NCBI GenBank assembly: GCA_947561395.2
Contig: OX387194.1
Location: 26,704,536 to 26,768,535, forward strand
Origin: Buxus sempervirens
Lineage: Eukaryota; Streptophyta; Magnoliopsida; Buxales; Buxaceae
DNA: 64,000 nucleotides
Reading direction: 5' to 3'
Below the pieces are notes generated by a model, which was not told the origin of the DNA, did not search any database, and worked only from the letters and a program-made list of their open reading frames with translations. Made by a program: the position numbers and the translations under genes. This document shows, piece by piece, positions 22,750 through 46,151 of the stretch; the first letter of the stretch is position 1, and the number at the start of each line of letters is the position of its first letter.

Positions 22750-23015
22750 AACCGCACTGTGTATGCGGTTTTTATAATCTCGGTTTCAACCGCTCTGTAT
22801 GTGCGGTTGCAACCGCACAGACAGCACGGTTCAGGTCCTTGCTTGTTGCGCTGGCAGCCACGTGGCTTCGAGAAGCTTCGGCCGTTAAGCCGCGTGTCCA
22901 GCACTCAATTAAAGCATAACTGAATTGAACCGCCCTGTATATGCGGTTTGTTCAAATTTGTATTGAACCGCACTTTGAGTGGCGGTTCTGTGGAAACCGC
23001 ACTGAGTATACGGTT
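22750..23015. repeat. Cluster of six quasi-palindromic AACCG-N11-CGGTT units (U3)
   Basis: Units lie at 22750-22770, 22788-22808, 22811-22831, 22928-22948, 22966-22987 and 22995-23015. Five are exactly 21 bp and one is 22 bp. The five-base arms are nearly invariant while the core varies (for example CACTGAGTATG, CACAGACAGCA). They lie 200-470 bp upstream of the LTR TATA box. The 3' LTR repeats the cluster at 43852-44117. Confidence 0.9.
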
Positions 23016-23216
23016 TTGGCTGTTTCGAGGCTTTGCGAAATGGCTCGATCTCTGAGCCTTATTTACGCATATTACCTCTCTCTTAGGGACTTGAACTCCC
23101 TATTTCACCCTCCGAAACTTGCTGAATTACACCAATTCATGCCTTGGAGGAGAATTGGAATAATCTAGAAGGCCTTTTTGGCCTACCCTTGGGACTCTTC
23201 TACCCTTGACTTGGCC

Positions 23217-23331
23217 TATAAATAGAGAGGCCCTCCTCTTGCAAATGGCTGACAATTTGAAGCTTAGAAGCTCTGCAAGAAGAAGGAGAAGCTCTGCTGG
23301 ATTGTCTACTGAAGGCTCAAGCTACCAAGGT
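23217..23331 (+). promoter_or_regulatory. LTR TATA box and downstream splice-donor-like site
   Basis: TATAAATA occurs at 23217-23224 in a GC-flanked context, followed 113 bp after its start by CCAAG|GTAAAG with the GT at 23330. The spacing would place the transcript start near 23250 and give a short leader exon. The three Tat-like solo LTRs have the same order of TATA box and (A/C)AG|GTA donor. The same pair is at 44319-44433 in the 3' LTR. Confidence 0.7.
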
Positions 23332-25051
23332 AAAGCTCTCTTTCATTTCCAGTCTTCCCTTTTAAGTTCTAGCAAATCTCTCATCTTCTACCTTTCTGTA
23401 GTGTAAGGCCTTTGTGCATTTTTGTAACCCCAAACCCCTTCTAAAGTACCTGGGAATCCTCTCTAGCCGTAAAACGTGAAGAGAGAGCCTGGGGAAAAGG
23501 AAGGTGGAATGGATCCTCTAGGTTTAGAACCCACAAGTGATGAAAAGCATACTATATGGTTATTTTGAACCCTTGAATGCTTCTCTGATTTTATTTTATA
23601 TTTGGAGAAGATGTGAATCCATGCTCTCAATAGCCATGGATTCCAAGCTTCTCATAGAAATGAGATTTTCCACACTTTCACACTCACTTTTCACTATTTT
23701 CATCAAATGGGCTAGATCTTGGGCTTTCCATGTTCAATATGGAAAATCTGAGGTCCTAGGCCTTAAAATGAGTTTTAGAACTTCATGAGAGGATTTCTTG
23801 TTGATTTTGAGGTTTTGGTCGAATCCACATGCACACATGCACTGGTTTCTATATTTCCTCTTAAAAAAACCTCAAAACAGGACAGATCTGTGGCCTGTCT
23901 TGGAAGACTTATAACTTCATCCTCCGGATGAATTTTTGAGTGATTCCAAAGACATGTGATAGATTGGAAGGTCTATTTAATATCTGGAAATTTTCGTCCA
24001 CTTCCATGTAGCCTATTTTTGACACCATCTCTTCAAAGTTTGTAGGACAGTTCAGCCCAGATTGCTGAACTTGTCGCTTTGATGGTGCACTATTTGCTCA
24101 GTTTTAATCCGTTTCCTATGATTCCAGTTTCTGAGTTTTCTTTAAGAAGTCTATTTTCATTTCCAACAAGTTTCAGCAGATTTCAATCTGTTTTGTGCTT
24201 TGGGTGCTCATTTGACTCAGAAGTGCTCGCTGGCATAGTCCAGAGCTCATCTGTGGTCTTCTAGGCCTGTTCAAGAGAGCACACAAGTCTCATCCGGATA
24301 GAGATTGATGTGCGGTTTTTTTCTTTGGAAAGATGGCACTACATACTTTCTCCATACCAATTTTCAGGGATTTATATTGAGCCAAACTCCACGAATAGAG
24401 CTTTGAAAATGCCTACTTAACACTTTTTCTGAGTTATGGCAGCAGATTTCATATGTGGATTTCTCTCTAGTTTTGAATCGGATCGAGCTGAACTTTTTAC
24501 TGCATATTCTAATATATACCAGTTTTCAAATGGCTTTGGTTTCATTTGATTTAGATTTAAATTGAATGAGTTATGGTTTATCAAAGCTTTCAAGCTCTTT
24601 TGATCGAATTTCTCCAGATTTGCCTTGGCTTGATTTTCTTCATTTTTACTTTGATTTCACTTCACTCATGAAGTTTTAGAAGTGATGAATCCACAAAGAG
24701 AGTCTAAATTCATTAGACTTCTCATGTGGAATGGTCACACACATTGTGCTTGTTAAGCACCTTTTTGTTTATTTTACTAGCAAACAATTTATAGCGTAAG
24801 CAAACATGTGGTAACCGTCTTAGACGGATGAGTGGGGGTGCCTAACACCTTCCCCCGCTCATAAATAATTCCCCGTACCCAATCTCTGGATTTTTCCTCA
24901 TCTTAGAGCTACTTTGGCTCTATTTGACATCTATGAACCTTTTGGTGTCCATTCACACCCTAAGATGGATGGTGGCGACTCTTTACATTTTATTGATCCC
25001 CGCGTGACGATATCGGAGGTCATCCGAGATGACGAATCCATGTCTCACAAC

Positions 25052-25069
25052 TGGCGACTCTGCTGGGGA
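25052..25069 (+). other. Primer-binding site
   Basis: TGGCGACTCTGCTGGGGA begins two bases after the 5' LTR, as expected for a tRNA-primed element. This PBS type is found in Tat/Ogre elements and is usually assigned to a tRNA-Arg; I infer the tRNA from family knowledge. Its first ten bases also occur inside U5 at 24973-24982. Confidence 0.88.
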
Positions 25070-26659: not shown

Positions 26660-26746
26660 AACCGTCCTGAGTATGCGGTTGTCTGCATTTTCGCTGCAAC
26701 CGCATGTATCATACGGTTTGAGCCAAACCGTTCTGAGTGTGCGGTT
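26660..26746. repeat. Cluster of three AACCG-N11-CGGTT units (leader)
   Basis: Units at 26660-26680, 26698-26718 and 26726-26746, each exactly 21 bp. Two have AACCGT instead of AACCGC on the left arm. They lie 1.5 kb upstream of gag, in non-coding sequence. Confidence 0.88.
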
Positions 26747-27475
26747 TTAAGCCGAAATCCCTTTCTGGCCATGCTAATTAAACATTTCTGGGTCCTTTCA
26801 TCCCTAAGTTATATAAGCAAATGGACAGTGACTCCAAATAAGATAAATGGCATTTAAACCATTCCAAATCCACCCGGATCAAGAAATTAAGGTCATTTTG
26901 AACATATTCACCTAAATTGAGCAAATTAATCCAACTCAAAGTTGAAAATGATGAAATAAAGTTGGCTCAAACCAAAAGTCAGGTCAAGCACCAAATTTTG
27001 CGGTTTAAGCTCATGTTAGGCTCTTTTTACCTAATTTGAACACTTAACCCATCTTAAGTGAAGTAAATGATTAAAAGAAAATTGGTTCAAATAACCAACC
27101 TAATCATACTTCAACCTCAAGAATTAAACTTGGAAATCACAATAAGTTCCCCAAAACATGTTAAGCTTAAAGTGTAATGCAATTCATGAAAAGAAGCTCA
27201 ACTCTTTTAAAATGGGGCAAATTCCAATCAAAAATCAATCTTTAAATCTTTAAACATAAATTGTTCAAACTTTTAAGATTTCTTCCAAAGAGCAATTGGG
27301 TCACTTGGAAACCTTTGAATTCCAAGCAAATAATCATTTAAAAATCAAGTGAAAGGAAAATTTTAAGTAAATCATCTCCTTGAAAGCAATTTGAGTCTCT
27401 TTTTAACTCAAAAACACCTAAGGGGAAATCAAAAATATTTTAGGCATCTGAAAGCCTTGGAATTTCAGAAAATCA

Positions 27476-28049
27476 ACTCATAGGACTCCTGGAAGCCTGA
27501 AATTCCAGACTTTTTCAAAATCTTCATAGGCCTTCTAAAGCCTGAATTTAGAAACTCATAGGACTCCTGGAAGCCTGAAATTCCAGACTTTTTCAAAATC
27601 TTCATAGGCCTTCTAAAGCCTGAATTTAGAAACTCATAGGACTCCTGGAAGCCTGAAATTCCAGACTTTTTCAAAATCTTCATAGGCCTTCTAAAGCCTG
27701 AATTTAGAAAATCATAGGCCCCTGAAAGCCTGCGTAATTCGGGAGGTTGTGGAAGCCTTAATTCCAAAGCATAAGCCCTTGGAAGCTTGCGTGATTCCAA
27801 GTCTTGATTTGTCTACAGGCTTTTACTGTAGGCACATCATCTTTTGTGGGATATGTTGGGAGCCCTAGAATTTTTCAATATTGGTGGGTCTTTTTCGCAC
27901 CAACCAATTCATAAGCCCTTGGAAGCTTGCGTGATTCCAAGTCTTGATTTGTCTACAGGCTTTTACTGTAGGCACATCATCTTTTGTGGGACATGTTGGA
28001 GGCCCTAGAATACTCCTACAAAATTTCTGAGGTTTGATCTTTTTCGTAT
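27476..28049. repeat. 78-bp triplicate and 140-bp duplicate tandem repeats
   Basis: Three nearly identical 78-bp units start at 27476, 27554 and 27632 (ACTCATAGGACTCCTGGAAG…) with a decayed fourth. A 140-bp unit starting CATAAGCCCTTGGAAGCTTG occurs at 27770 and 27910. Tat-lineage elements are known for tandem repeats in untranslated regions that can seed satellites. The minus-strand frame across the 78-bp array exists because 78 is a multiple of three and is not a gene. Confidence 0.88.
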
Positions 28050-28292
28050 CAATCACCTCATCTTAATAAGGTTATGTTAACCATAAATACAAAAATCAAA
28101 AAAAAATATATGAATGCAAAGAGACCCCTAGACTCGTGTTCACCAAGCCTACATGCATGCATGCATAGGTGTGTAAAGTTGATTTGATGGGATACTAACA
28201 TTTTTCTCTTTTGTCTTTTTCTTTTACCAAGGTACTAAGTTCCTACTGCAACCATTGCTCCCCGACGTTCTCAAAGATTAAAAGCTGCTACC

Positions 28293-31200
28293 ATGAACCC
28301 TGCTGAAGAACAATCCACTGTTTCGGCTGAGGCCTTTGCTCAACTGCAAGAGCAAGTGGCAGGGATGACCAAACTATTGGAGAATTTGCTGGCCAACCAA
28401 GCCGCTCAGGCTCAGGTGCAGGCGCAACAGGCGCAGGCTCAGGTTCACCAAGCTTCATCATCCCACAATGCACCACCACAGGCTCCACCCCAGACTGAAC
28501 TTCCACCACCAATCCAACCTATCCCACCTCAACCTGTACTCTCTCATCCAAACCCCGAGCCTATCCTGATCCGGGAGGAGGAATTTGAATGTGAGAGGGA
28601 AAAGGAAAAAGAAAAAGAGAGACTGAGGGTAGAAGTGGAGAGGAAATTTTTGGACAAACTGGAGTCCATTCAGGAGGAATTGAAAGAAGTGAGGGGGATC
28701 AACACGTTGGGTAGTACCAACTTTCAAGATCTCTGCCTGTACCCCGACGCATGCTTACCGGCCAAATTTAAGTGCCCGGATTTTGAGAAATATGACGGCA
28801 CCGGATGCCCAATGAGCCATCTGAAGCTCTACTGTGGGGCGTTATGCCAATTTGGCCGGGATGATGGCATCCTGATCCAGCTATTCCAGAGAAGCCTAAC
28901 TGGGGCAGCCTTGAGATGGTTCGCAACTGTGGACCACGGCAGAATCAGAAGATGGAAGGACCTAGCTGATGCTTTCCTTGCTCAGTACCGTTTCAATGCT
29001 GACATCGTGCCAGATAGGTACGATATGATGAAAATGAGTAAGGGAAGAGACGAGACAGTCAGGCAGTATGCCAAAAGGTGGAGAGAAGCCGCCTCTCAAG
29101 TCAGGCCTCCCATGATGGAGCCAGAGATGGTTACCACCTTCATTGGCACGCTGGGGCATCCATTTTACAATCACTTGGTGGGTCAGGTTACCACCAGTTT
29201 CGCTGCCCTAGTGTTGGTCGCGGACCGGATTGAAGATGGAATCAGATCCGGGCGAATCCACGACCATTCTGCCACGGCTCGTCAACAGGAGCCAACTTTT
29301 GATCCTTCTGCCCAGAAGCAGAAAAATGGGGCAAGAAGGAATGGAGGAAAGAAAGAAGGGGAAGTAAACATGGTACAACCCCAACCACCACAAAAACCCA
29401 TCCAAATCAATATTGCTGCACCTCCACCCAGTCCGGTGCAGCCACAATCAACCTATCAAAACCCTCTCAACATTAATGTTCCTCAGGCAGCAATGCCCAA
29501 CCAAAAAAGGGTATTCTCAAAAGAGGAGAGAGACGCTTGGATGGCGTCCAGAAGGAGCAGGGTCCTTTCCCCTCTTCCTGTGACTCCATCCCAACTTTTG
29601 CCATCTTTGTTAAACGCAGGGTATGTCACCCTGAAAGAGCCAAATCCGAATGCTTCAAAGGGAAAGAATTTCGATCCCTCCACCACCTGTGAATACCATA
29701 TGGGTGCACCAGGACACCCTACAGACAGGTGTTGGCCATTAAAACACGCAATTCAAGATTTGATCGATCAGGGAACCCTGTTGTTTAACACAGCTGCACC
29801 CTCTCCCGCCAGGACTGACATTGGTCAGAATCCTCTGCCCCAGCATAATGGGGCTGGTCCTTCCAATTTTGTAGGGACCATCTCTTTTAGACCTAGGACG
29901 TTTGATCCCTCGCAGTTAATTGCGCCAATAGGGACGTCCGTTAGGGTCTATTTTGACCAGGAAGAGATAGAGGAACAAATCAATGTCATTTCTGGAAATA
30001 ATGGAAATGGCAAGACTGCGGAGGACATTAATGCCTCTTTAAACCGGGCCGCTTCTCTTATGGCCCAGCTTAATGTAGCCAAACCCCCTCTCATTATTAA
30101 TTGCAACCAGGCTGTTGCTTCCCCCACTGCTCCATCATCCAAACCATCTTTGGTCATTAATTATGACCCCACCACTGCTTCAATTACGTCTGTTTCTTCT
30201 CAGACCTTAAAATCCTCTCAACCCAAGGCACCAAGGCAATCTTCGCCTCTGGTTATTGAGGTGCCTTCTTCTAACCTTATTCCCACATCAGCTGCTGCAC
30301 CAAGGTCCCACCTCCAACCCTTGGTATTTAACGTGCCTAAACCCTCTTATTCAGAAACCGCTGTACCTTGGAACTACAGCGAGGGTTATACGACCACTAT
30401 CCCAGTGGCCAGGAATCAGGGTCAGGAGGAGGTAAACCTCATGACAAGATCAGGGAGGTGTGTGGAAGGAAAAGAACAAGAAAAGAAGGAGACAGAGCAA
30501 GTCCAGAAGGGGAAGGCCAAAATAGGGGAAGACACCCCTCAGGTCGACAGTAAGGAGGCAGAGGACCTCCTAAGAATACTGAAAAAGAGTGAATTCAATA
30601 TTGTCGACCAGTTAACCAAGGTCCCTGCCCAGATATCAATACTGGGATTATTGCTTAATTCAGAAAAGCATAGGGACTCATTAATGAAAGTACTCCAGAG
30701 CGCCCACGTGCCCAAAACAATTGAGCCAGACCAGCTCGGCACGATGATCGGCCAGATCCTGTCTCACAATGTAATAAGCTTTTCAGAAAGCGAGATAAGC
30801 CCTGGTGGAGGCTATCACATGGACCCTTTGCACATCACTGTGCTCTGTAAGGGTAGCATGATAGCCAGGGTCCTAATTGACAATGGGTCAGCCTTAAACG
30901 TCTGCCCCCTTGTAACATTTGTGAGGCTTGGTCTAGACCAATCCAAGATAAAGCAGAACGGGAGGATTGTGAGAGCTTTCGATAGCTCCAAAACACACTC
31001 CCTGGGAGAGATTGAACTGCCAATTACCATCGGACCGAATATCTTTAATATCACATTCGAAGTGATAGATATTCCAGCTGCCTTCAATCTACTTCTGGGA
31101 AGGCCGTGGATCCACTCAGCTAGGGCTATACCCTCTACTCTTCATCAAAGAGTAAAATTTATAAGAGGCCAAAGGGTAATAACGGTCCTAGCCGAGAACC

Positions 31201-32069
31201 TAGTCCCTCCCGTCATATCACCTGACGTACCTTTCATTAATGTGGAATTAACGGCAGACAAAATTGCCTTTCACTCTTTTCAGTTTGAAACAGTCAACTT
31301 CATACCTGGGGGGTGTCTAAAAAAGAAAGAGAGGTTGACCTGCGCCAATAAGATGGTGGAGAAAGTCTTAAAGGATTGCAATTTCCACCCAGGAAAGGGG
31401 TTGGGCATTAACCTGCAAGGAAGGGTGACACCTATAGAGGCACAGAGCCTAGTCCCACGAGTAGGACTAGGGATGAAAATGAGAAGATGGAAGAGGGGAC
31501 CACAGAAAGAAAATGAGAGGGGAGAGAATCAAGGAAAGTTCCCTCATTTAAAGGAAACTTTCCCGAGGCCCTCTCATACCATTCAATTGGCTCCTCCTAC
31601 AGATTCCTCCAAGCCTCCGTATTTCAATGACAACCCTTTTAGAAAACCTTTTACCTCAACCCTTCAGCCTTTTATCCCCCTCTCATCCACTTTGGCGCCT
31701 AAAGCCACGGGTGAGCCTGAGCCACTGCCACAAGAGCAGCAGGATTTCACGGAAGAGACAGGGGCATTCTTTGCAATGACAGAGAATGAAGGAAGAGAGA
31801 AAGCAGAAGAAGAGGTTCCTTTTATCGACTGGGCATCAATTAAGATTCCTGATGAAGTCACCTCTGAACTCAGCCCCGAAGCAGAAAAGGGCAGTTTTTC
31901 AAATCCGGTAATGATGGTATCGGATCAAGAGTTTGGGGAAGAACAGGTTTGCACTATACCACCTGTTCCAGAGGGCTTTGTATTGAAAAATTGGGAAGAG
32001 ACCCCTTTGACATTTGAGGCTGCATATGGTTGGCAATCAGCTGCGGCCTCCAAAAAAAAACTCCATTAG
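28293..32069 (+). CDS. Gag-protease polyprotein of the Tat element
   Basis: A single open frame of 1258 codons. The N-terminus is Gln/Pro-rich and contains a Glu/Lys coiled-coil-like segment (about residues 90-135). A retrotransposon gag domain follows at about 160-320 (FEKYDGTGCPMSHL, LTGAALRWF, DRYDMMKM). A zinc-knuckle-like C-x2-H…H-x4-C stretch is at about 466-480. Long Pro/Ser linkers come next. The retropepsin has its active site as VLIDNGSALNVCP near residue 863, a DNGS variant common in plant Tat elements. A G-patch-like GKGLG segment lies near 1030-1055. Gag forms the particle and the protease cleaves the polyproteins. Related Ogre elements place gag-pro and pol in separate frames linked by splicing, and the arrangement here agrees with that. 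Confidence 0.92.
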   Translation: MNPAEEQSTVSAEAFAQLQEQVAGMTKLLENLLANQAAQAQVQAQQAQAQVHQASSSHNAPPQAPPQTELPPPIQPIPPQPVLSHPNPEPILIREEEFECEREKEKEKERLRVEVERKFLDKLESIQEELKEVRGINTLGSTNFQDLCLYPDACLPAKFKCPDFEKYDGTGCPMSHLKLYCGALCQFGRDDGILIQLFQRSLTGAALRWFATVDHGRIRRWKDLADAFLAQYRFNADIVPDRYDMMKMSKGRDETVRQYAKRWREAASQVRPPMMEPEMVTTFIGTLGHPFYNHLVGQVTTSFAALVLVADRIEDGIRSGRIHDHSATARQQEPTFDPSAQKQKNGARRNGGKKEGEVNMVQPQPPQKPIQINIAAPPPSPVQPQSTYQNPLNINVPQAAMPNQKRVFSKEERDAWMASRRSRVLSPLPVTPSQLLPSLLNAGYVTLKEPNPNASKGKNFDPSTTCEYHMGAPGHPTDRCWPLKHAIQDLIDQGTLLFNTAAPSPARTDIGQNPLPQHNGAGPSNFVGTISFRPRTFDPSQLIAPIGTSVRVYFDQEEIEEQINVISGNNGNGKTAEDINASLNRAASLMAQLNVAKPPLIINCNQAVASPTAPSSKPSLVINYDPTTASITSVSSQTLKSSQPKAPRQSSPLVIEVPSSNLIPTSAAAPRSHLQPLVFNVPKPSYSETAVPWNYSEGYTTTIPVARNQGQEEVNLMTRSGRCVEGKEQEKKETEQVQKGKAKIGEDTPQVDSKEAEDLLRILKKSEFNIVDQLTKVPAQISILGLLLNSEKHRDSLMKVLQSAHVPKTIEPDQLGTMIGQILSHNVISFSESEISPGGGYHMDPLHITVLCKGSMIARVLIDNGSALNVCPLVTFVRLGLDQSKIKQNGRIVRAFDSSKTHSLGEIELPITIGPNIFNITFEVIDIPAAFNLLLGRPWIHSARAIPSTLHQRVKFIRGQRVITVLAENLVPPVISPDVPFINVELTADKIAFHSFQFETVNFIPGGCLKKKERLTCANKMVEKVLKDCNFHPGKGLGINLQGRVTPIEAQSLVPRVGLGMKMRRWKRGPQKENERGENQGKFPHLKETFPRPSHTIQLAPPTDSSKPPYFNDNPFRKPFTSTLQPFIPLSSTLAPKATGEPEPLPQEQQDFTEETGAFFAMTENEGREKAEEEVPFIDWASIKIPDEVTSELSPEAEKGSFSNPVMMVSDQEFGEEQVCTIPPVPEGFVLKNWEETPLTFEAAYGWQSAAASKKKLH

Positions 32070-32442
32070 TGGATTGCCCTTTTCCTGAAGGTTTTAACGA
32101 ACCTTCATCTTCAGGAAAAGCCTCTCTAGAAGGTTCTCAAAAAAACCAAAAAAATTTTTCCATTTTTTCTAGAAAATCTAAAGCTTTCAAAATGGTCCAG
32201 ACTGCTTATGAGCCATATATACAGACTGAATTAGAGCAAGTTGAATACGACTTCGACCTCGAGCTCGACTTCGACCTAATGGGGATCGAAGAGGAGATCG
32301 AAGCCGAAGACGATGACCTTCCAAGAGAAATATCATATCAATTGGAACGTCACGAAAGGGTATTCAACCTAATATTGAAGAAACCATTTCCATAAACCTG
32401 GGAACTGAAGAGGACCCAAAAATTGTAAAGATTGGTGCATGC

Positions 32443-35400
32443 TTGTCTGAAATACAGCAGAAGGAAATGTCCCAATTCTTGGCCGATTACAAGGACGTGT
32501 TCGCATGGTCTTATCGGGATATGCCAGGGTTGGATACAGACATGGTTGTACACAGGCTGCCAATCCTGCCAGGAGTAAAGCCTATTAAGCAGAAATTGAG
32601 AAGGTTGAAACCGGAATGGACTTTGAAAGTCAAAGATGAAGTAGTAAAGCAGTTTCAAGCCGGGTTTTTGGCGGTGTCCACATACCCTGATTGGCTAGCC
32701 AATATAGTCCCAGTTCCAAAGAAGGATGGAAAAGTCAGGATGTGTGTGGATTACAGAGATTTGAACAAAGCAAGCCCGAAGGATGATTTTCCATTGCCAC
32801 ACATCGACATCTTGGTTGATAATACGGCAGTGCACAGCCTGTTCTCTTTTATGGATGGCTTTTCCGGATACAACCAAATCAAAATGGCAAAGGAGGATCA
32901 AGAGAAAACCGCTTTTATTACTCCTTGGGGAACCTTCCACTACACAGTCATGCCTTTTGGATTAAAGAATGCCGGGGCAACATATCAGCGAGCCATGACA
33001 GCCCTTTTCCATGATATGATCCACAAAGAGATGGAAGTCTATGTGGATGATATGATCGCTAAATCATGTGAAGAGGAAGACCACTTAATCAATCTAAAGA
33101 GGGTATTTGACCGTCTAAGGAAGTACAGCTTAAGGCTTAATCCAACAAAGTGTGTCTTTGGAGCCACATCCGGGAAATTATTAGGATTCATTGTAAGCAG
33201 AAGAGGGATTGAGATAGACCCGTCTAAGGCCAAGGCAATCATTGAGATGCCAGCTCCTAAGACTGAAAAAGAAGTTAGGGGCTTTCTGGGAAGAATTCAG
33301 TATATCAGCCGGTTCATAGCACAACTCACTGCTATTTGCGAGCCGATCTTTAAACTTCTAAGGAAGAATAACCCAACTATATGGAATGAGGATTGCCAAC
33401 AAGCATTCGACAAAATAAAGGATTATCTTTCAAATCCTCCTGTTCTAGTACTGCCAATTCCAGGAAAACCACTGATTCTGTATCTATCAGTTCTAGAAAC
33501 ATCAATGGGATGCGTATTGGGGCAGCACGATGAAACAGGCAGAAAAGAAAAGGCTATCTACTATTTGAGCAAGAAGTTTACAGATTATGAGACAAGATAT
33601 TCGCCTTTGGAAAAGACTTGTTGCGCTTTGGTCTGGGCGACTCAAAGGCTTAGGCACTATTTCTTAAGCTATTCGACTTTGCTGATCTCAAGGATGGATC
33701 CGCTAAAATATCTGTTTGAGAAGCCGGCTTTAACTGGTAGAACAGCAAAGTGGCAGCTTTTGCTTTCAGAATTCGACCTGACATATGTCACCCAGAAAGC
33801 AATCAAGGGTCAGGCAATTGCTGACCACCTAGCTGAGCACCCATTGCCAGATTATCAACCTCTTAAAACGAATTTCCCGGATGAGGCTATCTTATTTGCT
33901 GAAGAGGAAGAAAGTGAAGACTCTTGGCAGATGTTCTTTGATGGGGCTGCCAATATGAGTGGAAATGGGATCGGCGCAGTATTAGTAAAGCCAGATGGTT
34001 CACATATCCCAATCGCAGTGAAATTGAGGTTTCAGTGCACGAACAACATAGCAGAGTATGAGGCATGTATAATCGGATTACAAGCTGCTCTGGACCATGA
34101 TGTTCAAGAACTTGACGTATATGGAGATTCGAGTCTTATCATCTTCCAAACAACTGGGGAATGGAAAACCAAAGATCATAAATTGATCCCATATCACCAA
34201 TATTTGGAAGAAATAAGTACCAAATTTACTCGAATTTCTTTTAGCTATATGCCAAGGGCTAAGAATCAGTTTGCGGATGCCTTGGCGACATTGGCCTCAA
34301 TGGTTAGTATTCCAGAAGGGGTAGACATACAACCGCTTGAAATTGAAGTCAGAGACGAGCCAGCTTACTGTCTTGTTTTGGAAGGAGCGCAAGAAACAGA
34401 AATACCATGGTTCCAAGATATCAAGAATTTCTTGGATAATCGAAATTTACCAGAAAGCGCTAGTCCCACTGAAAAAAGAACAATACAGAAGTTAGCAGGA
34501 CAGTTTCTTCTAAGTGGTGGGCAGTTGTATAAGAGATCTTACAATAATGTTCTACTCAGATGCGTCACCAAGGTTGAAGCAGAAAGGTTGATTGAAACAG
34601 TGCACGGGGGAGTCTGTGGGCCGCACATGAATGGACACATGCTCGCAAGGAAAATATTGCGATTGGGATATTATTGGTCTACAATGGAGCACGATTGCTG
34701 CCTACATGTTAAGAGATGCCATTTGTGCCAAATATATGCTGATAATAAGCATGCACCACCAAGTGAACTGCACAGCATGACCTCTCCATGGCCATTCTCT
34801 ATGTGGGGTATTGATGTCATTGGGATGATTTCTCCAAAAGCATCTAATGGACACCGGTTCATTCTGGTGGCAATTGATTATTTCACAAAATGGGTTGAAG
34901 CTGCTTCGTATGCAAATATCACAGGAAACCATGTTCTTAAGTTTCTAAAGCACAACATAATTTGTCGCTATGGGTTGCCAAAAGCCATAGTTTCAGACAA
35001 TGCTTCAAATATTAAGAACAAGGATATGAAGGAGATGTGTGAGCAGTTTCAGATAACTCATCACAAGTCAGCCCCTTACAGGCCAAAAATGAATGGAGCG
35101 GTAGAAGCGGTAAATAAGAATATAAAGAAAATAATCCAGAAGATGGTGGTAAGCTATAGAGATTGGCACGAGATGTTGCCATTTGCTCTCCATGCTTACA
35201 GAACCTCGATCCGAACTTCTACTGGGGCAACGCCGTATTCCTTGGTTTATGGCACAGAGGCCGTCTTACCCGTTGAGGTAGAAATCCCTTCATTAAGAGT
35301 GCTTATGGAAACAGAGCTTGAAGAGGCTGAATGGGTTCAGTCTAGATATGAGCAACTTAATCTGATAGAAGAAAAGCGGTTGAATGCGCTTTGCCATGGC

Positions 35401-35655: not shown

Positions 35656-36705
35656 AGGAATATCACAAAGAAATGATCCGAGGCCATTTTTCTTCCTCCC
35701 TCACAAATTCTAATATCCCTAGATTAAACCAAGTTGAGCCTGTTCGTGTTTTAAAGAACCCAAACTGGAGCTTACAGTCGCGACTGGGGCAGGGTTAATA
35801 GAAAAACAAAAAGGGAAATAGAAAAGAAAGGCCAAAAGAAAAAAAAAAGAAGGCCAATATTGGGAATGGGGGGTCGCATCCATTATGACTGTAAGCCCAG
35901 TTGTCCCATTTTCAAGATGTTAAAATGTTGAGCCTATAATAATCTTTTTTCATAAACTCAACCCAGCCTTCATTTCGTCCTATTGGTCAAGTCCTCGGTG
36001 ATCGGGGTGTATTCCTTCAAGCTCAGGATGTCGAAAGGGCAATGACGGAATAAAACAAGCCGGTCCTAGTGAAAACCGTAACAGGCACTAGGGGCAATAT
36101 TGGCAGAAAGAAGGCGAAAGAAAAAAAAAAGAAGAATAAAAGAAAAGGAAGAAACAGGAAAAAGGTCACCAGCCGTACTTGGGATACAGATTGAACTAAA
36201 CCGCCCTTTTCCTACGGTTTTGGCAGAAGGGTTATGCAACCGCATATTGAAGACGGTTTTGGCTAAACCGTTCTGAATGCGCGGTTTTACGCAGCAGAAG
36301 GGAATTGAGCAGATTTTATGCACAGGACTAAACCAGTAGGCTGGGGCAGGCCCCCTGAAAGTGGGAAGGAAACTTGGGGATGAGTCTAAGGGTTCCAAGG
36401 GGGACGGATTGGCTTCCTCCTCATTAACTGAAACACCCTTTTTGCCCAACTCACTTCAATTCATCCAACTATATGGGATTAAAGCATTATGGACCAATTT
36501 ACAATAAAAACACACAAAAATGAAAACTATATTTTGGCCGATGATGAGAAATCAGTGACTTTTCATTAAAACTGTCAGTTTTTACAAGCATATGAGAGTT
36601 CTGAGGCCAATAGTATAAAAACCTACTTTGTATTCTCTATCTTTCCACTAGTGGAGTTTCTCTTTGTACAGAGGTATAAAAAAGAAAAAAATACAATAAA
36701 AGGGG
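35656..36705. other. Non-coding spacer between pol and the antisense genes
   Basis: It contains A-rich tracts and a cluster of three AACCG-N11-CGGTT units at 36199-36219, 36238-36258 and 36266-36286, all exactly 21 bp. No convincing open frame. It would hold the 3' ends of both pol (plus) and the first antisense gene (minus). Confidence 0.7.
36199..36286. repeat. Cluster of three AACCG-N11-CGGTT units (between pol and antisense gene)
   Basis: Same arm sequence and 21-bp length as in the LTR. The order of cores resembles that of the leader cluster at 26660-26746, with the last unit of both reading AACCGTTCTGA. Confidence 0.88.
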
Positions 36706-38360
36706 CTAATCTCTATCCCCTAGCCTTTCCTCAAGCTCTCTGATCCGGGCCGCCTGAACCGCCACAAGCCTCTCAGCCCCATCTGCATCTGGGTCACTGA
36801 GGAATGAGATGACGTCATCTGAGAGGGTCTGCCTAGTCCTCATATCTCGGAGCCGGGCCATGGTCTCGTCATGCCTGCGCCATGCAGCTCTCACCTCGAA
36901 GCGACGGGCCTGTATCTGCTCAGATAATCGCCGCTCCAGATCTTCCTTCTCCAATCTCAAGGTTCGGGCCTCCTCCACCCATATGAGCTGAAGCCGCCTA
37001 TGAGAAGCCCGCTCGGTCTCCAAGAGGTCCTCATAAGTAGGACACGGGATAGCAGGAGGATCCGCCGGTATGGAAGCGCAGCTCTGCACCTGCTCTCTAA
37101 TCCAGAAAATATAATCCTTCTCATGCAATTTAGAGAAGACAGGACCTCTCAAGAAGCAGGCCTGCGACCATTCCTTCAATAGGCGGAAGCAGAGGCCCAT
37201 GGTGGCTGGTGTGAGGGGACCAAGGAGTTCTTCATATCCATGAGGTACCAAAATCCCTTGGGACTCCTCTCCAAACTGCCGGATGACCCTCAAAGGCAAG
37301 TAGAGCAAGGCAGACTTCAAGCCCATAAGCACAGCGAAGTTTTGGTCAGAGAAGCTGATCACTGTCTCGACGGAGGGCTGATAAGCACCAGGCCATCTCA
37401 CCTGGTCGTCCTGAAGAGTCCCCAAGAAAGCAAACCATCCCTGTTTGCCGCCATGTATATTGGGACACCCCCTGTTGCTCATCAAAACAGGAACGTCCAA
37501 TCTGGGGAAGAAGCGCCGGGTTATCTCTTCAACCTGACTCAGGTGGTCAAGTAACCAGAGCTGCACAAAACAGGGAAGCATTTCCAACCTTAGAAAATTT
37601 CAACATGGCCATAAAAATTACAATTCAAAGAAAGAGATTCAGATTTTACCTGAAGTATAGGGGCGCAGGCAAGGAAACTTTTCTGCTTCCTGTGATAGCA
37701 GTCAATCAAGGCCTGGTATATTTCAGCCAGGATCATAGGGGCAAGCCTTTCGCGCTCCCTAACTTGGCAAATGACTGAAATGAGGGATAAATCAACCTCG
37801 CTATCACCTCGGGGGAATAAAAGTTGATTGACCACTATCAATGTCAGAGCGTTGAACCGGGCCGACTGGTTGGAGCTATTTAACAGCTTCTCAGTCAGAA
37901 ATGACTTGGATAGGGTCAATAAAGCGTCGGCTTCCCCTAACTCTTTCTTGTTAATCCCCAAAAAAGTGGAGGCTTCCTTTTTGAAGCTCGGTTTGAGAGG
38001 TGGGTTAACTACTTTCTTAGAAAAGCTAAGGTTGAGGATGGTTTCAACCTCCTCGACTGTAGGGGTCATCTCTTTTTCCCCAAACCTGAAGAGGTTCAAT
38101 TGAGGCTCCCAATGCCCAATTAGTGCCTCTATGATTTCCCATTTTAGGGGAATCTTTGGGATTGAGAGGAGGTGGCCTAGATTGGCAGAGGCCCAATCCA
38201 TCTCATCTTGAGGGGTCATTGAGGAGACCCACCTCTCATAGAATGTATCTACAATGGCATACCTAGTCAAATTAGGAGGTTTGGACCTAATTTTTGGTCT
38301 AGGTGCTGATATTTCAGGTACAGAAGATGAAGAAGGCACAGAAGCTGAACCAGAGGCCAT
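36706..38360 (-). CDS. Antisense accessory gene X, plant-mobile-domain/DUF7745-like
   Basis: Two minus-strand blocks follow each other. The 5' block (38360 down to about 37650) starts MASGSASVPSSSS and continues with FYERWVSSM and WEIIEALIGHWEPQLNLFRF, then KEMTPTVEEVETILNLSF. The 3' block (about 37590-36706) has FVQLWLLDHL and ends in a Glu/Arg-rich coiled-coil tail. The pattern 'WEP…FRFGxxEMTPTVEEVExIL' belongs to plant proteins of the plant-mobile-domain/DUF7745 group that accompany Tat-lineage retrotransposons. A short GT…AG-bordered gap separates the blocks, as a small intron would. Function is unknown. The gene would be transcribed opposite to the element, from a promoter near 38.4-38.6 kb that holds four AACCG/CGGTT units and a TGACGT inverted pair. 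Confidence 0.72.
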
Positions 38361-38450: not shown

Positions 38451-38491
38451 CCTGCCCGCAATTCGCGGTTTTAAAATAACCTAAGGGCAAA

Positions 38492-38609
38492 AACCGCATA
38501 CACAGAACGGTTGTGCCTAAACCGCACTTAATATGCGGTTGCATTCCCGCAAAGTTTAAAAACCGCGGGATAAGTACGGTTCTTGCACAACCGCCCTGAA
38601 TGTACGGTT
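38492..38609. repeat. Cluster of four AACCG-N11-CGGTT units upstream of antisense gene X
   Basis: Units at 38492-38512, 38520-38540, 38561-38581 and 38589-38609, all exactly 21 bp. They begin 130 bp upstream of the gene X start codon, matching their promoter-proximal position in the LTR. A partial unit (CCCGCAATTCGCGGTT) follows at about 38455-38470. Confidence 0.88.
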
Positions 38610-38839
38610 TTTGCACAAAAAGGGGTTTTACTTCTTTCTTTTAATAAGTCATGTTCCCAGAAAACCTGTTACCTGTATAAACAATTGTAACATGACAAAC
38701 ATACAAAAATAAACAAAAAATCTACAAAAAAAGAAACAAAACCAAAAAAATCTTCTCTTTTCATATAAGCTGCCAATGAATACATCAAGTTTATATACAA
38801 ACATCTGATAAATCCTAATCTAGACCTATCTCTAACAGG

Positions 38840-41689
38840 TCAATCCCTATCGCCTCTACCTCGCCGTCGCTGTTGGATGAAAAAGTGATCTGAGAAGCGC
38901 TGGCCAGCGGGAGATGAAGACTCACCAAGCGAGGATGGACCAGCAGGAAGCACCAGGTTTGCAGGAGGCGCAGGATCGGTAGAAGAGGCTGAGGCTGGAG
39001 CTGGATCATCCCGGGTCAGGTCCATGAAGCATGAAACTGAAGTGTCCGTCGCCAAAGGGACCAGCTCCAGAACCCGAGAGTCCTCCGCAGAAGGAGATGG
39101 ATCTACGGTACTAGCTACGCCGGGAACATCCTCCTCTCTCATAAGCTCGGCCGCCTCTGGCTCAGCTGCGCCGGGAACATCCTCCTCTCTCGTAGGCCCG
39201 GCCGTCTCATGAACCACAGGAATCTCCGATCCACCCTCCGCTGGCTCAGGAGCAGTCTCCGGCTCAGATGAAGGAGCGATCTCAAATACAGGTACAGCCT
39301 CCGGCATCTCGGCCGACTCAGGAACTACACCAGTGGAAGTAGCCTCGGCCGCCACCTCGCTCTCTCTCTCCGGGATCTCTATATCTCCTAAAGAGAAGGA
39401 CAAAGTGCGGGAACTGGATGGTAAAGGCACCACATTCTCCTGGAAGACAAAGACAGGCTGATCAGAAGCAGGAAAGATAAAGAAAAAAAAAATAATACAA
39501 GAAACTAAGGAAGACAGACCTGAGCTCCTGAAGGCCCCGCCTGGCCCTGGGCACTGGCCAACTGGGCCCGCAAGTCAGCAATGAGAGTGGCCTGCCCAGT
39601 AATGATGACATCGCTCTCAGCAATGGCGGCGTCCCTCTCAGCCAGCTGGCGCTCCAGATCCGCATATCGAGCCCGGACCTCCTCTAGCTGTGCCTCCTGA
39701 AATGAGATAAGAAAAGAAAAGATATCAGTAAATAAGAAAGGAAGACTAAAAGACTGCACAAGGAAAGGAGGTTCATACCGTGGTGTCATAGAGGCGGATC
39801 ACTACCCCCCCTATCTCAGTAACTCCACCTCGAACGGGCATGGGCTGCATCAGACAACCCACTGAGACCTGCCCGAACCAGGTATCATAGTCACCATCGA
39901 CTAGAAGGCCATCTCCTGCCTCCCACTCGCCAAAATGGGCAGGGTCGAATGGACCAGGAGGGATAAAAGGGGCTGTAGCTGGAGGAGCCACTGGAATCCG
40001 GAGCTCGCCAGTATGCTGGAAGAAAAATCGCTCGCCGAGGTACCATATACTACCCAACTGCCCAATGAAGAATGGGTACCTCTGGCGCCGCTGATCCAGT
40101 GCGAAAGCGTCATCCACAAAGGGCTGAAAAGCCAGCTCGTCATGCAGGCCGTCAAGACGGGGGACAGATAGCTGAGGGTGAACAAAGAAGAATATCAGAA
40201 TCTGATAAAAAGGAGAAAAGGAAATGAAGAAAAGAGAGACGGGAAAAATGCTTACCTCTCTCCTAAAGGTCCTGTCCAGGTGAGCCCTGGCCGACCTAGG
40301 GCGACTCTTCTCTGAGTCACGCCTAATCTGATTCCACCGGCGGGCCAAGGGAAATGTCCCCTCAGGCAAAGTGGAGGTAGGGCGAAAGTGGGCCACATAG
40401 ACCCGAGCAAAAAACTGAAAAGAAAAAAAAAGGGAGAAGAGAAGAGAAAAAGAAAAAAAGAAGAAGAAGAGAACAAAAGAAAAAAGAAAAAGAAAAGGTT
40501 AAGCAAAAAAGAAAAACAGAAGAAGAGAGAAAAGAAAGGAAAGAAAGAAGAAAAGAATTCATACCTGCAGAAAGGGCCAGAAAAATCTGCAACCTACTCC
40601 AGCTCCCCTGGGAGAAGACAGGCCGGAAACCACTCGTCGCAGGCCCGCTAGCAAGGTGCCATAGACAAGCTGACCCCAAGCGTAGTCCCTCGCTCGGTGC
40701 AAATCCCGGAGAAGACTCAAGAAATGGGGGCTGACCGAAGTAATATCCTCCAGGCAGAAGCAGGAGCCCATCATCAGAAGAAAAAGAAATCTGAAAGCGA
40801 TCGGGAAACTGGGATGCTCCGCTGCTAGGGTGCTGAATCCCCTCTCCACAAATGCCTCCCTCAACCATGTCCGGGAAATACGAGTGATCCTGCTCCGATC
40901 CCACGCCTCCACGGGCATCTCGTCATATCCCAACAGCTCGGCAATCTCCAAGTCCGCCGGCCGATCCATCTCAGTGATGACATCTCCAGTCATCCTGATC
41001 CCGGTAATGAGAGCAAAGTCGGAAGGTCGAATGCCTATCTCCACATCAGGCAGATGGAAGCTCAGGGTCTCCGGGAAAAAGCGCTCCAACAAAGCTAAGA
41101 TCAAGGGCCGATCCTGACGGACGCCGGTGATGGTAATGAAGGGGCCAAATCCAAAACGGCCCATCTCTCGGCGCAGAGAGGACGAGCAAGCCCCTACAAC
41201 ATCAGCAAAAAGGGCCCAGCTCCCTCGGAAATGGGAAGAAGGATATCTAAGAGGGATGTCTGCCCTGACGCCTGCCGAAGGATGCGTCGTCAAACTACTA
41301 AGAAGAGAGGTGTCCCGGATCTGATCTGCTATCTCTGCAGGAATGGCGACACGAGTCGCCCGGGCTCCTGCCCTACCTCTACGACGGCCTCCACTACGCT
41401 CTCGGACCTCACCAGCAGGCTAGAAAGGCGAATAAAAAGGGGTTTAAGTTGAATGTGATAAAAGAAAGGCCGGATATTAAAAAGGGAAAGGGAATACCTC
41501 TGGGATCGACTCCAGCGAATCCCCAGACGCTCCAGAGTCAGAATCTGAAAGCTCCAGACCACTGGGAGAAGAAGGCTCAGGGTCTGGCTCAGCCCTAGAG
41601 GAAGACGCCACATCGGCCGGATCCCTCCGAACCCTCGAAGATGAAGGCTCATCTACGGGACCCCGAGAAGCGCGACGTGTACGGGCCAT
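38840..41689 (-). CDS. Antisense accessory gene Y, multi-exon, mobile-domain-like
   Basis: Six minus-strand open blocks appear between 41689 and 38840, at about 41690-41500, 41420-40570, 40410-40260, 40170-39790, 39700-39520 and 39440-38840. Short purine- or pyrimidine-rich gaps with GT…AG-type borders separate them. The first starts MARTRRASRG. The second contains FHLPDVEIGIRPSDFALITG and AWGQLVYGTLLAGLRR, which resembles the fold pattern of plant mobile domains (FHLPxGExxxxxxDxxxLxG…). The fourth is a GELRIP…DYDTWFGQV segment. The fifth is a coiled coil (LEEVRARYADLERQLAERDA). The last is Glu/Pro/Ser-rich and ends in an RRRGRGDRD basic tail. Function is unknown. Introns can persist because they are antisense to the element's own RNA. 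Domain naming rests on recalled patterns. Confidence 0.65.
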
Positions 41690-43724
41690 CTACAGGACCA
41701 AATTGCAGGGATAAATTCATTATATTCTTCGCATTTAAAGTCATAATTTTCACTAAAGTGTTTTGTTCATGTTTAAAAGTCATAGATTTTTGTTTTATTT
41801 TCTTCACTATTTTGTCCCACATATTAATCATTTTGTTTGGATTGCAGGAAGAAAAAGAAACCAGAAGAGGCACTTCAAAGAGTGTCTGACCGAATCAGAA
41901 TTATTATAAATTCTGTTATAAGAATTATATATAGGAAACGGGATCCCTATATATCTCTCTTATATTGCAAAAAAAAAAAAAAAAAAAAGAGAAGAAGAAA
42001 AGAAAAAAGAAAAAAGAAAAAAAAGAGAGAGCTTTGAAATTCCTAGTTTATCTCTAAGATTTTAGTTGTGGATGTGGGCACGAATTGCCTAAGGCCCCTA
42101 AACTAATGTATATGATTCAATTTCAGGTTTACCAAGGGCAGACAGCACCAAGGACAGCCAAGGCAGGATTATAGTAGCAAGGATCTATTTAAACCTGGTC
42201 GTGGTGGGGTTTTCGGTTGAAAACACCTAATGCAAAGGGCAGAAAGTAATTCGTATTTGCTACAATTAGACAATTGGAACAAATGTGAAGACATGAATAA
42301 ATGGGAACAATAGCCAGATCCAAGCATGCAGAGGTATCAACCAAGGAAAATCAGATATATACTAGCATGAACAAATGAAGAAAGAAGAAGTAATCGATGG
42401 CATTGGCATTCAAAAAGATCACAAATCATCAGAAATCCATGTTGTCGGCAAACATAGCATGTGGGGATTGTCTTCAATCAAGACATTCAAGCATGCCAGA
42501 AAGGCAAAAAATTCCAGTCTAAGGGTCCAGGCTAGCGGAAATAGCAGACCAAGTTTGCAAAGCATAATCAATAAGTTGATCAATCGCCAAGTGCATACAG
42601 TCCGGATGAAATATTGGCAAGAAAAAAAAACAAAGCAAGTAAGCACAGGCCAATTTGGAGGTCTCTCTCGACCAAGAGCAAAATCATGCCAAAAGTCCAA
42701 AGTAATACAGGTCATTGTGAAGTTCAGGCCAATACAGACCATTGGTGCATACAAAATTGGGGATTTTTATCCCATTAACAACAAGGTAACCAAAGCAGTA
42801 AATCAGTGGCAAAAATCGAGTTCGGGTGTAAAATAAGATCATTCAACCATAGAGTCAGGTTGCCAAATTCCGGATGGAAGGTTTGCAAAAAAGGATAAGT
42901 ATTCGGCCACTTACCTGTGATTAGCTGAAATCAAAGCTTTGCAATGAAAAATCGAAGCTGTGGCCTCACCGGAACCCCGAATGCACTCGATTGATGGCGT
43001 GGTTGAAGAAGAGCTCCAGTCGCCCAATTTCTCACAGCCCAAACAGCGGTCAGGTCACGGCAGGAAGAAGAAATCGTTTGGATACCCGCCGGAAAGTGCT
43101 GTAGTTCACCAGGAGAAAAACAAAAATCACCGGAAGAAGATGAAGTCACCGGAGGATGTGATTTCGCCGGAGAAGGAAGGATGAAGACCGGAGAGAAAGC
43201 ACGGTCGCCAGAAAAGAAGAACAGCACCAGAGTTCGAGGGTTTTGCGAAGGCAGAGTGAGGAACCGCGGTCGCGGTCTCGGTTATATGAAACCTAGAAAA
43301 CCGCACACACAGAGCGGTTGGTATTAATATTGATGAAACCCGCACATATAGCACGGTTAAAATTGAGAATGCTAAAAACCGCATGTTCAGTACGGTTGGC
43401 ACCCAAAAATGAATTTTCAAAACTTTTTTCAATCTCTCTCAAAAGATCTATGTCCAGGGCAATTGTGAATTGCAAGAAACACCATCCTACCAACTTTTGC
43501 TTTAAAATTTGCTCAAATCTCACTTCATAGCCACGAGTGCTCTGTGAGAGGCGAGGAGAGGATTTGACCCTTAAGGTTAGGGACTTTTCATCAAATCCTT
43601 TAAACAAATTCTTTTTCAAAAACCATATTGGAGTTCTTGCAGCTCATAATCGAATGGACCTGATCCTGAGAGGTGCAATTTGCGGGTCTTTTGCTCTCCG
43701 CTGCCAATTGATTCCAATCCCAGC
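41690..43724. other. 3' non-coding region of the Tat element
   Basis: A mixed stretch with an A-run and AG-rich track at 41970-42030 and several short unremarkable frames (for example 42375-42836, Lys/Ser-rich, no family recognised). A block at 42960-43200 has repeated CACCGGA/GCCGGA phrases. Four AACCG/CGGTT units lie near the end. Confidence 0.6.
43262..43397. repeat. Cluster of four AACCG/CGGTT units near the 3' LTR
   Basis: Units at 43262-43283 (22 bp), 43299-43319 (21 bp), 43337-43358 (22 bp) and 43377-43397 (21 bp), 340-480 bp before the 3' LTR. Confidence 0.85.
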
Positions 43725-43734
43725 GAAGAGGGGG
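43725..43734 (+). other. Polypurine tract
   Basis: GAAGAGGGGG lies four bases before the 3' LTR (CAGT between), the expected place for the plus-strand primer. Confidence 0.85.
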
Positions 43735-43738
43735 CAGT

Positions 43739-46151
43739 TGTAGACACCCCAAATTGCACCCCAATATAAGAGATTAACTAAGAAGGGCTCCAAAGGTCTT
43801 ATTTGAGCCTTTACATATGTCAAACTTTCAAAAACTTTCAAAATCAGTGCCAACCGCACTGTGTATGCGGTTTTTATAATCTCGGTTTCAACCGTTCTGT
43901 ATGTGCGGTTGCAACCGCACAGACAGCACGGTTCAGGTCCTTGCTTGTTGCGCTGGCGGCCACGTGGCTTTGAGAAGCTTCGGCCGTTAAGCCGCGTGTC
44001 CAGCACTCAATTAAAGCATAACTGAATTGAACCGCCCTGTATATGCGGTTTGTTCAAATTTGTATTGAACCGCACTTTGAGTGGCGGTTCTATGGAAACC
44101 GCACTAAGTATACGGTTTTGGCTGTTTCGAGGCTTTGCGAAATGGCTCGATCTCTGAGCCTTATTTACGCATATTACCTCTCTCTTAGGGACTTGAACTC
44201 CCTATTTCACCCTCCGAAACTTGCTGAATTACACCAATTCATGCCTTGGAGGAGAATTGGAATAATCTAGAAGGCCTTTTTGGCCTACCCTTGGGACTCT
44301 TCTACCCTTGACTTGGCCTATAAATAGAGAGGCCCTCCTCTTGCAAATGGCTGACAATTTGAAGCTTAGAAGCTCTGTAAGAAGAAGGAGAAGCTCTGCT
44401 GGATTGTCTACTGAAGGCTCAAGCTACCAAGGTAAAGCTCTCTTTCATTTCCAGTCTTCCCTTTTAAGTTCTAGCAAATCTCTCATCTTCTACCTTTCTG
44501 TAGTGTAAGGCCTTTGTGCATTTTTGTAACCCCAAACCCCTTCTAAAGTACCTGGGAATCCTCTCTAGCCGTAAAACGTGAAGAGAGAGCCTGGGGAAAA
44601 GGAAGGTGGAATGGATCCTCTAGGTTTAGAACCCACAAGTGATGAAAAGCATACTATATGGTTATTTTGAACCCTTGAATGCTTCTCTGATTTTATTTTA
44701 TATTTGGAGAAGATGTGAATCCATGCTCTCAATAGCCATGGATTCCAAGCTTCTCATAGAAATGAGATTTTCCACACTTTCACACTCACTTTTCACTATT
44801 TTCATCAAATGGGCTAGATCTTGGGCTTTCCATGTTCAATATGGAAAATCTGAGGTCCTAGGCCTTAAAATGAGTTTTAGAACTTCATGAGAGGATTTCT
44901 TGTTGATTTTGAGGTTTTGGTCGAATCCACATGCACACATGCACTGGTTTCTATATTTCCTCTTAAAAAAACCTCAAAACAGGACAGATCTGTGGCCTGT
45001 CTTGGAAGACTTATAACTTCATCCTCCGGATGAATTTTTGAGTGATTCCAAAGACATGTGATAGATTGGAAGGTCTATTTAATATCTGGAAATTTTCGTC
45101 CACTTCCATGTAGCCTATTTTTGACACCATCTCTTCAAAGTTTGTAGGACAGTTCAGCCCAGATTGCTGAACTTGTCGCTTTGATGGTGCACTATTTGCT
45201 CAGTTTTAATCCGTTTCCTATGATTCCAGTTTCTGAGTTTTCTTTAAGAAGTCTATTTTCATTTCCAACAAGTTTCAGCAGATTTCAATCTGTTTTGTGC
45301 TTTGGGTGCTCATTTGACTCAGAAGTGCTCGCTGGCATAGTCCAGAGCTCATCTGTGGTCTTCTAGGCCTGTTCAAGAGAGCACACAAGTCACATCCGGA
45401 TAGAGATTGATGTGAGGTTTTTTTCTTTGGAAAGATGGCACTACATACTTTCTCCATACCAATTTTCAGGGATTTATATTGAGCCAAACTCCACGAATAG
45501 AGCTTTGAAAATGCCTACTTAACACTTTTTCTGAGTTATGGCAGCAGATTTCATATGTGGATTTCTCTCTAGTTTTGAATCGGATCGAGCTGAACTTTTT
45601 ACTGCATATTCTAATATATACCAGTTTTCAAATGGCTTTGGTTTCATTTGATTTAGATTTAAATTGAATGAGTTATGGTTTATCAAAGCTTTCAAGCTCT
45701 TTTGACCGAATTTCTCCAGATTTGCCTTGGCTTGATTTTCTTCATTTTTACTTTGATTTCACTTCACTCATGAAGTTTTAGAAGTGATGAATCCACAAAG
45801 AGAGTCTAAATTCATTAGACTTCTCATGTGGAATGGTCACACACATTGTGCTTGTTAAGCACCTTTTTGTTTATTTTACTAGCAAACAATTTATAGCGTA
45901 AGCAAACATGTGGTAACCGTCTTAGACGGATGAGTGGGGGTGCCTAACACCTTCCCCCGCTCATAAATAATTCCCCGTACCCAATCTCTGGATTTTTCCT
46001 CATCTTAGAGCTACTTTGGCTCTATATGACATCTATGAACCTTTTGGTGTCCATTCACACCCTAAGATGGATGGTGGCGACTCTTTACATTTTATTGATC
46101 CCCGCGTGACGATATCGGAGGTCATCCGAGATGACGAATCCATGTCTCACA
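43739..46151 (+). repeat. 3' LTR of the Tat element
   Basis: Same 2413-bp length as the 5' LTR at a constant offset of 21,102 bases, so no indels separate them. About 11 substitutions were found by eye. The six AACCG/CGGTT units are at 43852-44117 and the TATA box at 44319. It is followed by the second GTAGT target duplication. Confidence 0.95.

Follow-up and report, generated by a model that had tools for sequence, protein, structure and literature searches.

A 64,000-nucleotide stretch of the Buxus sempervirens genome (contig OX387194.1, positions 26,704,536 to 26,768,535; here called the window) carries a complete Tat/Ogre-type long terminal repeat (LTR) retrotransposon with 26 copies of a short palindromic unit in its non-coding parts. 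The element lies on the forward strand from 22637 to 46151 (23,515 bp), with the 5-bp target duplication GTAGT on both sides. Comparison of the LTRs placed them at 22637 to 25049 and 43739 to 46151 (+; 2413 bp each, TG...CA ends). They differ by 11 substitutions in 2413 positions (0.46%), and at a rate of 1.3e-8 substitutions per site per year this divergence dates the insertion to about 0.2 million years ago, making it recent. Behind the 5' LTR, a primer-binding site was seen in the sequence, TGGCGACTCTGCTGGGGA (25052 to 25069, +), which we take to be of the tRNA-Arg type, and a purine-rich tract precedes the 3' LTR. Using domain searches, we located the gag-pol block at 28293 to 35655 (+). 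It consists of a gag open reading frame (ORF) with a G-patch (28293 to 32069) and an ORF encoding reverse transcriptase (RT), RNase H, an additional RNase H (aRH), and integrase (32443 to 35655). Both RNase H domains were found in pol (PF17917/PF17919 plus PF13456), and aRH is the criterion for the Tat/Ogre clade of Ty3/gypsy in the available text of PMC6317226.

Two more genes, both antisense, lie behind pol and ahead of the 3' LTR. Gene X (36706 to 38360, −) has exon 1 at about 37650 to 38360, with matches to DUF7745 (PF24924, 2.1e-21) and to the plant mobile domain, PMD (PF10536, 4.1e-11), and exon 2 within the ORF at 36706 to 37587; the exon border was read from the sequence. Gene Y (38840 to 41689, −) probably has several exons. 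Its PMD lies in the ORF at 40559 to 41293 (PF10536, 1.5e-15), and its start was read from the sequence at about 41689. PMD and DUF7745 were the only domains matched by X and Y at E 0.1, with no match to DUF1985. Transposase_28 gave no match in nine ORFs at E 0.1, PMD being found instead in X and Y; as far as the available text of PMC6317226 goes, a PMD-type extra ORF is reported in 57% of Ogre elements and Transposase_28 for Retand. Two PMD clades, A1 and A2, are described as present only in Gypsy elements in the portion of PMC5418596 at hand. A separate group of DUF7745 genes has a single open frame of about 498 amino acids (e.g., C6:43794347) and may belong to another element type or to a host gene family.

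The original prediction had placed 26 units of the form AACCG-N11-CGGTT in the non-coding parts of the element and nowhere else, and this was borne out. The window holds 25 exact matches to AACCG-N8..14-CGGTT, none of them outside 22750 to 44117, against a chance expectation of 0.08 (largest value 1 in 100 shuffles). The 26th, at 43338, has one arm mismatch (ACCCG). Coding sequence, which makes up 50% of the element with the introns of X and Y counted, contains none of the 26, and no AACCG unit was found within the 104 kb around the RT of 30 loci, the window itself being one of these. The six clusters, to which no strand is assigned, are where they had been predicted. The 5' LTR cluster (22750 to 23015; units at 22750, 22788, 22811, 22928, 22966, and 22995) precedes the TATA box, TATAAATAG, at about 23217, by about 200 bp, and the same six units recur in the 3' LTR (43852 to 44117; 43852, 43890, 43913, 44030, 44068, and 44097). 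Three units lie in the leader (26660 to 26746; 26660, 26698, and 26726) and three in the gap between pol and gene X (36199 to 36286; 36199, 36238, and 36266). Four lie in the gene X promoter (38492 to 38609; 38492, 38520, 38561, and 38589) and four before the 3' LTR (43262 to 43397; 43262, 43299, 43338, and 43377). Just ahead of this last cluster is a degenerate extra unit, GACCG-N11-CGGTC, at 43186 to 43206. Just before gag, the leader also contains three tandem copies of a 78-bp repeat and a 108-bp stretch duplicated at a distance of 140 bp (27475 to 27718 and 27764 to 28011).

The finer description of the units needed correction. While their total was right, the lengths divide into 23 units of 21 bp (22 exact ones and that at 43338) and three of 22 bp (22966, 43262, and 44068), not 22 and four. 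The spacing had been called irregular, yet 11 of the 14 non-redundant spacings are 28 or 37 to 39 bp, one helical turn apart. The 14 spacings are phased (resultant 0.73, p 0.0003 against a uniform 22 to 45), with the caveat that this null was picked after the fact and that some spacings may have common descent. The core had been called variable, but it is not entirely free: of 17 non-redundant AACCG units, 12 have CTG at positions 8 to 10 on one strand, where 0.46 would be expected. The same triplet is found in 6 of 16 units with ATCCGG arms (0.30 expected) and in none of 10 units of GCCCGT type, two arm types that are described below. Irrespective of the outer letters, the window contains 33 matches to CCG-N11-CGG (27 within the element), compared to at most 11 for every other spacer from 0 to 29.

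The 21-bp site length is rigid genome-wide. We counted patterns in the whole 676-Mb genome alongside control patterns (for AACCG arms, the reversed pattern), a scan that the original prediction had proposed. AACCG arms were found 19,195 times with N11 but 184 times with N10 and 1,428 times with N12; several of the N12 places, among those with letters shown, are identical or similar to the LTR's 22-bp variant. Among the loci fetched for AACCG matches, we met palindromes of equal 21-bp length with other arms. ATCCGG-N9-CCGGAT occurs at 32,622 sites (control 36), compared to 28 with N8 (control 16) and 21 with N10 (control 8), while GCCCGT-N9-ACGGGC occurs at 14,261 sites (control 8). For AACCG and ATCCGG arms, a spacer one base off thus lowers the count 13- to about 1,550-fold. 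Together, the three arm types account for about 66,000 sites in this genome.

These related elements keep the CCG-N11-CGG frame and alter its outer letters symmetrically, as would be expected if X and its sites had diverged together. Hybrid AACCGY/CCGGAT sites number 26, fewer than in the control (96). The same 9-base core, CCTGAGTAT, can occur in both AACCGY and ATCCGG sites, which reads as though the arms alone had been swapped. In three loci (L001, L004, and L068), AACCGT/GACCG units lie about 0.9 to 1.0 kb from GCCCGT units beside a TATA-like box, the GCCCGT units being 28 bp apart in L004 and L068. Since some AACCG sites are thus only about 1 kb from GCCCGT sites, our counts are by pattern and not by family. 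Parts of the window at 47 to 54 and 62 kb are linked by blast to L001/L004. Further decayed 21-bp palindromes with AACCGAAAT...ATTTCGGTT-type arms are present at 59808 to 60031 and 61456 to 61590, and one of this type ends about 15 bp before TATAAAA. They are possibly a fourth arm type in the remnant of another element.

We compared the arrangement of ATCCGG sites with that of the window, where the clusters begin at offsets of 0, 3.9, 13.4, 15.7, 20.5, and 21.1 kb. Five runs on contig C1, chosen by eye among the first 100 places and taken as elements by interpretation, have clusters at 0, 3.6 to 3.9, 14.9 to 15.7, 19.4 to 19.8, and 20.1 to 20.8 kb. These offsets resemble those of the LTR, leader, X-promoter, pre-3'-LTR, and 3'-LTR clusters; a counterpart of the pol-X gap cluster (13.4 kb) was not seen with exact arms in the five runs. 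The internal ATCCGG cluster was predicted to stand ahead of the start of an antisense X homologue, as was then found in a 2.7-kb piece (L077), which has a DUF7745/PMD gene with 73% identity to X. Four further DUF7745 loci (L078 to L081) were picked from 118 matches. In each of these five homologues, none of them a close copy, sites precede the X start codon: ATCCGG in L077, GCCCGT in L078 and L079, and AACCGY in L080 and L081, the last being decayed, with one unit that fits the frame pattern. The proximal unit begins at −152 from the ATG of X in the window, L080, and L077, which represent two arm types, and the units of L078 and L079 lie between −143 and −226. A TATA-like box follows at −115 in the window (TTTAAAA), at −117 in L077 (TATAAA), and at −99 in L078 and L079 (TATATA).

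The proteins sort in the same way as the sites. Exon 1 of X is 84 to 91% identical within the AACCGY group (three sequences), 91% within the GCCCGT group (two), and 68 to 82% between types. Between types, synonymous divergence (dS) is 1.7 or more or saturated at a nonsynonymous divergence (dN) of 0.12 to 0.22, which indicates that X is under purifying selection. We then asked about the leader slot (5.4 to 6.2 kb before RT) for the 16 RT matches on C1 that lie within the range of the hybrid list. Among the matches listed, 9 of 11 without a nearby X of 90% identity have a GCCCGT/RCGGTT site in this slot, compared to 0 of 5 with such an X, where 0.3% is expected at random. Judged from these sequences, protein type and site type travel together. 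Some elements with different sites have RT proteins that are 99% identical, which suggested a recent module swap, in which the same pol had exchanged its X and sites. It was rejected because the synonymous sites of pol are saturated (dS 2.4 or more, dN 0.034 to 0.039) in L036 to L040, the five RT loci out of 30 whose DNA is strongly diverged from that of the window and near which no X of 90% identity is among the matches listed. Protein change in X is roughly five times faster than in pol, a rough figure given that X and pol come from different loci.

We next examined whether the arms are kept in other copies, a check that the original prediction had called for. Of the 30 best X copies (window included), 22 retain every one of the seven units that make up the two clusters in range, and the other 8 retain three to six. 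Relative to the window, the X-promoter piece of the other 29 copies is changed at 5 of 1154 arm positions, 4 of 231 at position 6, 15 of 1044 in the core, and 105 of 3362 in the flank. Arms are thus altered about seven times less than flanks (p 6e-9, an optimistic value given the kinship among copies fetched by X protein). The two more distant AACCGY loci gave arm 0/40, core 4/36, and flank 14/117 for L080 and arm 4/40, core 7/36, and flank 27/117 for L081; taken together (arm 4/80, core 11/72, and flank 41/234), arms differ less than flanks (p 0.005), with p 0.054 for arm against core. Three LTR pieces agreed (arm 13/180, position 6 12/36, core 42/164, and flank 224/771; arm vs flank p 3e-11), but this comparison is biased, as L065 and L066 were fetched for listed exact sites and two of the three pieces are from one locus. 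Our conclusion rests on the copies fetched by X protein. It extends the conserved arms of the original prediction to other copies, in which both core and flank change more than the arms.

On balance, and with modest confidence, we favor a model in which the units are dimer operators of a protein encoded by the element itself, most likely X, in a VANC-like system that regulates the start of X, the LTR, and the other gaps. Each unit would be the binding site of a dimeric protein reading two inverted half-sites 11 bp apart (CCG-N11-CGG) together with family-specific outer letters. The binder would most likely be made by the element, with the antisense PMD protein X as the best candidate. By binding the cluster ahead of its own start, X would regulate itself, and its further targets would be the cluster ahead of the LTR promoter and those in the other non-coding gaps. 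The proposals of a two-fold-symmetric protein-binding site and of a regulator shared by the LTR and antisense promoters are both supported by the rigid 21-bp frame and by arms that change far less than their flanks. If X and its sites diverged together, each family would address only its own copies. The outcome, as our first choice, would be activation or the removal of silencing at own copies, as with VANC. Our second choice is autorepression, in which the protein would be titrated by thousands of copies and copy number would thereby be sensed. CCG/CGG is a methylatable context in plants, and all three arm types contain it, so binding may possibly be sensitive to methylation.

Several points weigh against this model. 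The domain search recognized no DNA-binding domain in X, and no solved relative of X was found at E 1 (for Y there was one weak match, at E 0.4). The model of X exon 1, built on a two-row alignment, gave no usable fold, with a predicted local distance difference test score (pLDDT) of 36. In exon 2, a helix of 67 residues (185 to 251) is predicted, which we take for a coiled coil and a plausible dimerization part; it comes from a single-sequence model with a mean pLDDT of 47, reaching 73 to 92 at residues 201 to 250 only. The match between X and arms comprises six X sequences in three groups, with an in-frame stop in L078 and L079, and in L080 and L081 the pattern used found no TATA box. These comparisons do not tell coevolution specific to X apart from simple common descent, the related pol being synonymously saturated as well. 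The reversed-pattern control for AACCG arms is itself high (N11 1,691; N10 1,467; N12 1,084) and hence gives no clean baseline, and genome counts are not independent events, all copies coming from few ancestors. GCCCGT/RCGGTT hybrids number 1,618 (control 48), which makes the GCCCGT branch looser and less pure.

Gene Y, a second PMD protein, is an equal candidate on chemistry, and the sites could be bound by Y, or by X and Y as a heterodimer, instead of by X alone. The Y start has a cluster about 1.6 kb upstream of it, as would suit this alternative, while the tightest positional constraint that we saw is at the start of X, and we consider Y or the heterodimer unlikely. We judge it likewise unlikely that a host transcription factor, MYB or other, binds the sites and drives the LTR and antisense promoters. 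AACCG does contain the core AACNG, and sites are followed downstream by TATA or TATA-like boxes in the LTR, at X in the window, and in L077, L078, and L079. Host factors are known to act in plant LTRs, such as MYB in Tto1 and a heat-shock factor in ONSEN, where repeated protein sites likewise lie upstream of the LTR TATA box. However, the fit to MYB is not supported: the 5' pyrimidine required by the MYB consensus YAACNG (taken from the original prediction, which had proposed this fit) is present in only 13 of 38 half-sites, and ATCCGG and GCCCGT arms keep the same length and place without AACNG. Unlike in Tto1 and ONSEN, the sites here are in all non-coding gaps, including the leader, the pol-X gap, and the gap before the 3' LTR, with family-specific arms and an element gene alongside; a single host factor would need no separate arm type for each family, although a host protein with more than one specificity might act here.

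RNA hairpins acting in packaging, splicing, or reverse transcription, which had been offered as an alternative, are very unlikely. The arms are self-complementary, and a hairpin would also predict that the five outer pairs are kept and that arm changes between families are symmetric, preserving the stem; units do lie in the leader and 3' region. Yet a loop need not be of exact length, which the effect of one base on the counts contradicts, and the 5' LTR units are upstream of the TATA box. Positions 6 and 16, which adjoin the stem, are opposed as C-A in 11 of 22 window units and in 137 of 197 sites of the 30 X loci (C-G 29, T-G 28, T-A 3), these sites being copies of few ancestral ones oriented by blast (orientation by anchor string, not used, gave 130 C-A). 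Fixed spacing, inverted half-sites, the lack of any sign of 6/16 pairing, and phased arrays together argue for protein dimers on DNA and not RNA stems. We also give little credence to a passive repeat, a palindrome tandemly duplicated long ago and inherited without function: the 28- and 39-bp spacings suggest such an origin and all copies share descent, but arms containing CpG change about seven times less than flanks in the 29 X copies, coding sequence has 0 of 26 units, and both the frame and the −152 position are retained at near-saturation of synonymous sites and with DNA upstream of the X coding part in L077, L078, and L079 that blast does not match to the window at E 1e-6.

Returning to an element-encoded dimer, similar geometry is known from Gal4-type CGG-N11-CCG operators, which are read by a coiled-coil dimer. 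These also have inverted CGG triplets 11 bp apart, in the opposite (everted) orientation compared to CCG-N11-CGG, and our domain search found no zinc-cluster domain here. The closest likeness is to VANC of the VANDAL transposons, Mutator-like elements (MULEs) of Arabidopsis, whose family-specific non-coding motifs are bound by the element protein with removal of methylation, going by the available text (PMC5735166, PMC10398659). Both systems have a dense short motif in the non-coding parts of one transposon family, related families with different motifs, and an element with an extra gene. VANDAL, however, is a DNA transposon with a 9-base motif in one orientation and a DUF1985 protein, a domain to which X and Y gave no match, whereas the element here is an LTR retrotransposon (RT and integrase) with a fixed 21-bp palindrome and antisense PMD genes. 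Tandem duplication, shown for VANC targets, is here only suggested by the 28/39-bp spacing, and binding and demethylation, also shown for VANC, are here part of the proposed model.

Plant Ty3/Gypsy PMD genes and the antisense ORFs of Ogre/Retand are likewise extra Gypsy genes, and in Retand and others the extra gene, as here, runs antisense in the region that separates pol from the 3' LTR (PMC5418596, PMC6317226, PMC9289625, PMC11963269, PMC7264820). In the portions of these papers at hand, no DNA target of a retrotransposon PMD protein is given; an anti-silencing role is speculated for PMDs captured by MULEs (PMC5418596), a DNA-binding regulatory role is proposed for another antisense protein, TRP28 (PMC11963269), and the functions of PMD (PMC9289625, PMC7156037) and of Tat-type antisense genes (PMC11963269) are called unknown. 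Among the matches listed in open-licence literature, titles and abstract openings describe neither these palindromes nor such a target. It is possible, and we suggest it tentatively, that Tat/Ogre elements have a self-recognition system in which an antisense PMD protein is paired with palindromic 21-bp operators particular to each family, the two having co-diversified into almost exclusive specificities within one genome and serving anti-silencing or copy sensing independently of VANC. LTR retrotransposons would then have evolved cognate protein/motif addressing by a route separate from VANDAL, and retrotransposon PMD proteins would gain a concrete candidate DNA target. With an abundant, precisely spaced site in three specificities, the question of PMD function becomes a simple binding test. 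The Arabidopsis PMD proteins MAIN and MAIL1 are linked to a promoter motif, 'DOWN', present in 25 of 26 commonly downregulated genes, and in the available text the authors raise its direct recognition as one hypothesis among others (PMC7156037). As here, a PMD protein is paired with a promoter motif; unlike here, the motif belongs to host genes and not to a transposon's own sites. If our model is true, the palindromes would offer a candidate DNA code for a large plant protein family, which may bear on the domesticated MAIN and MAIL1.

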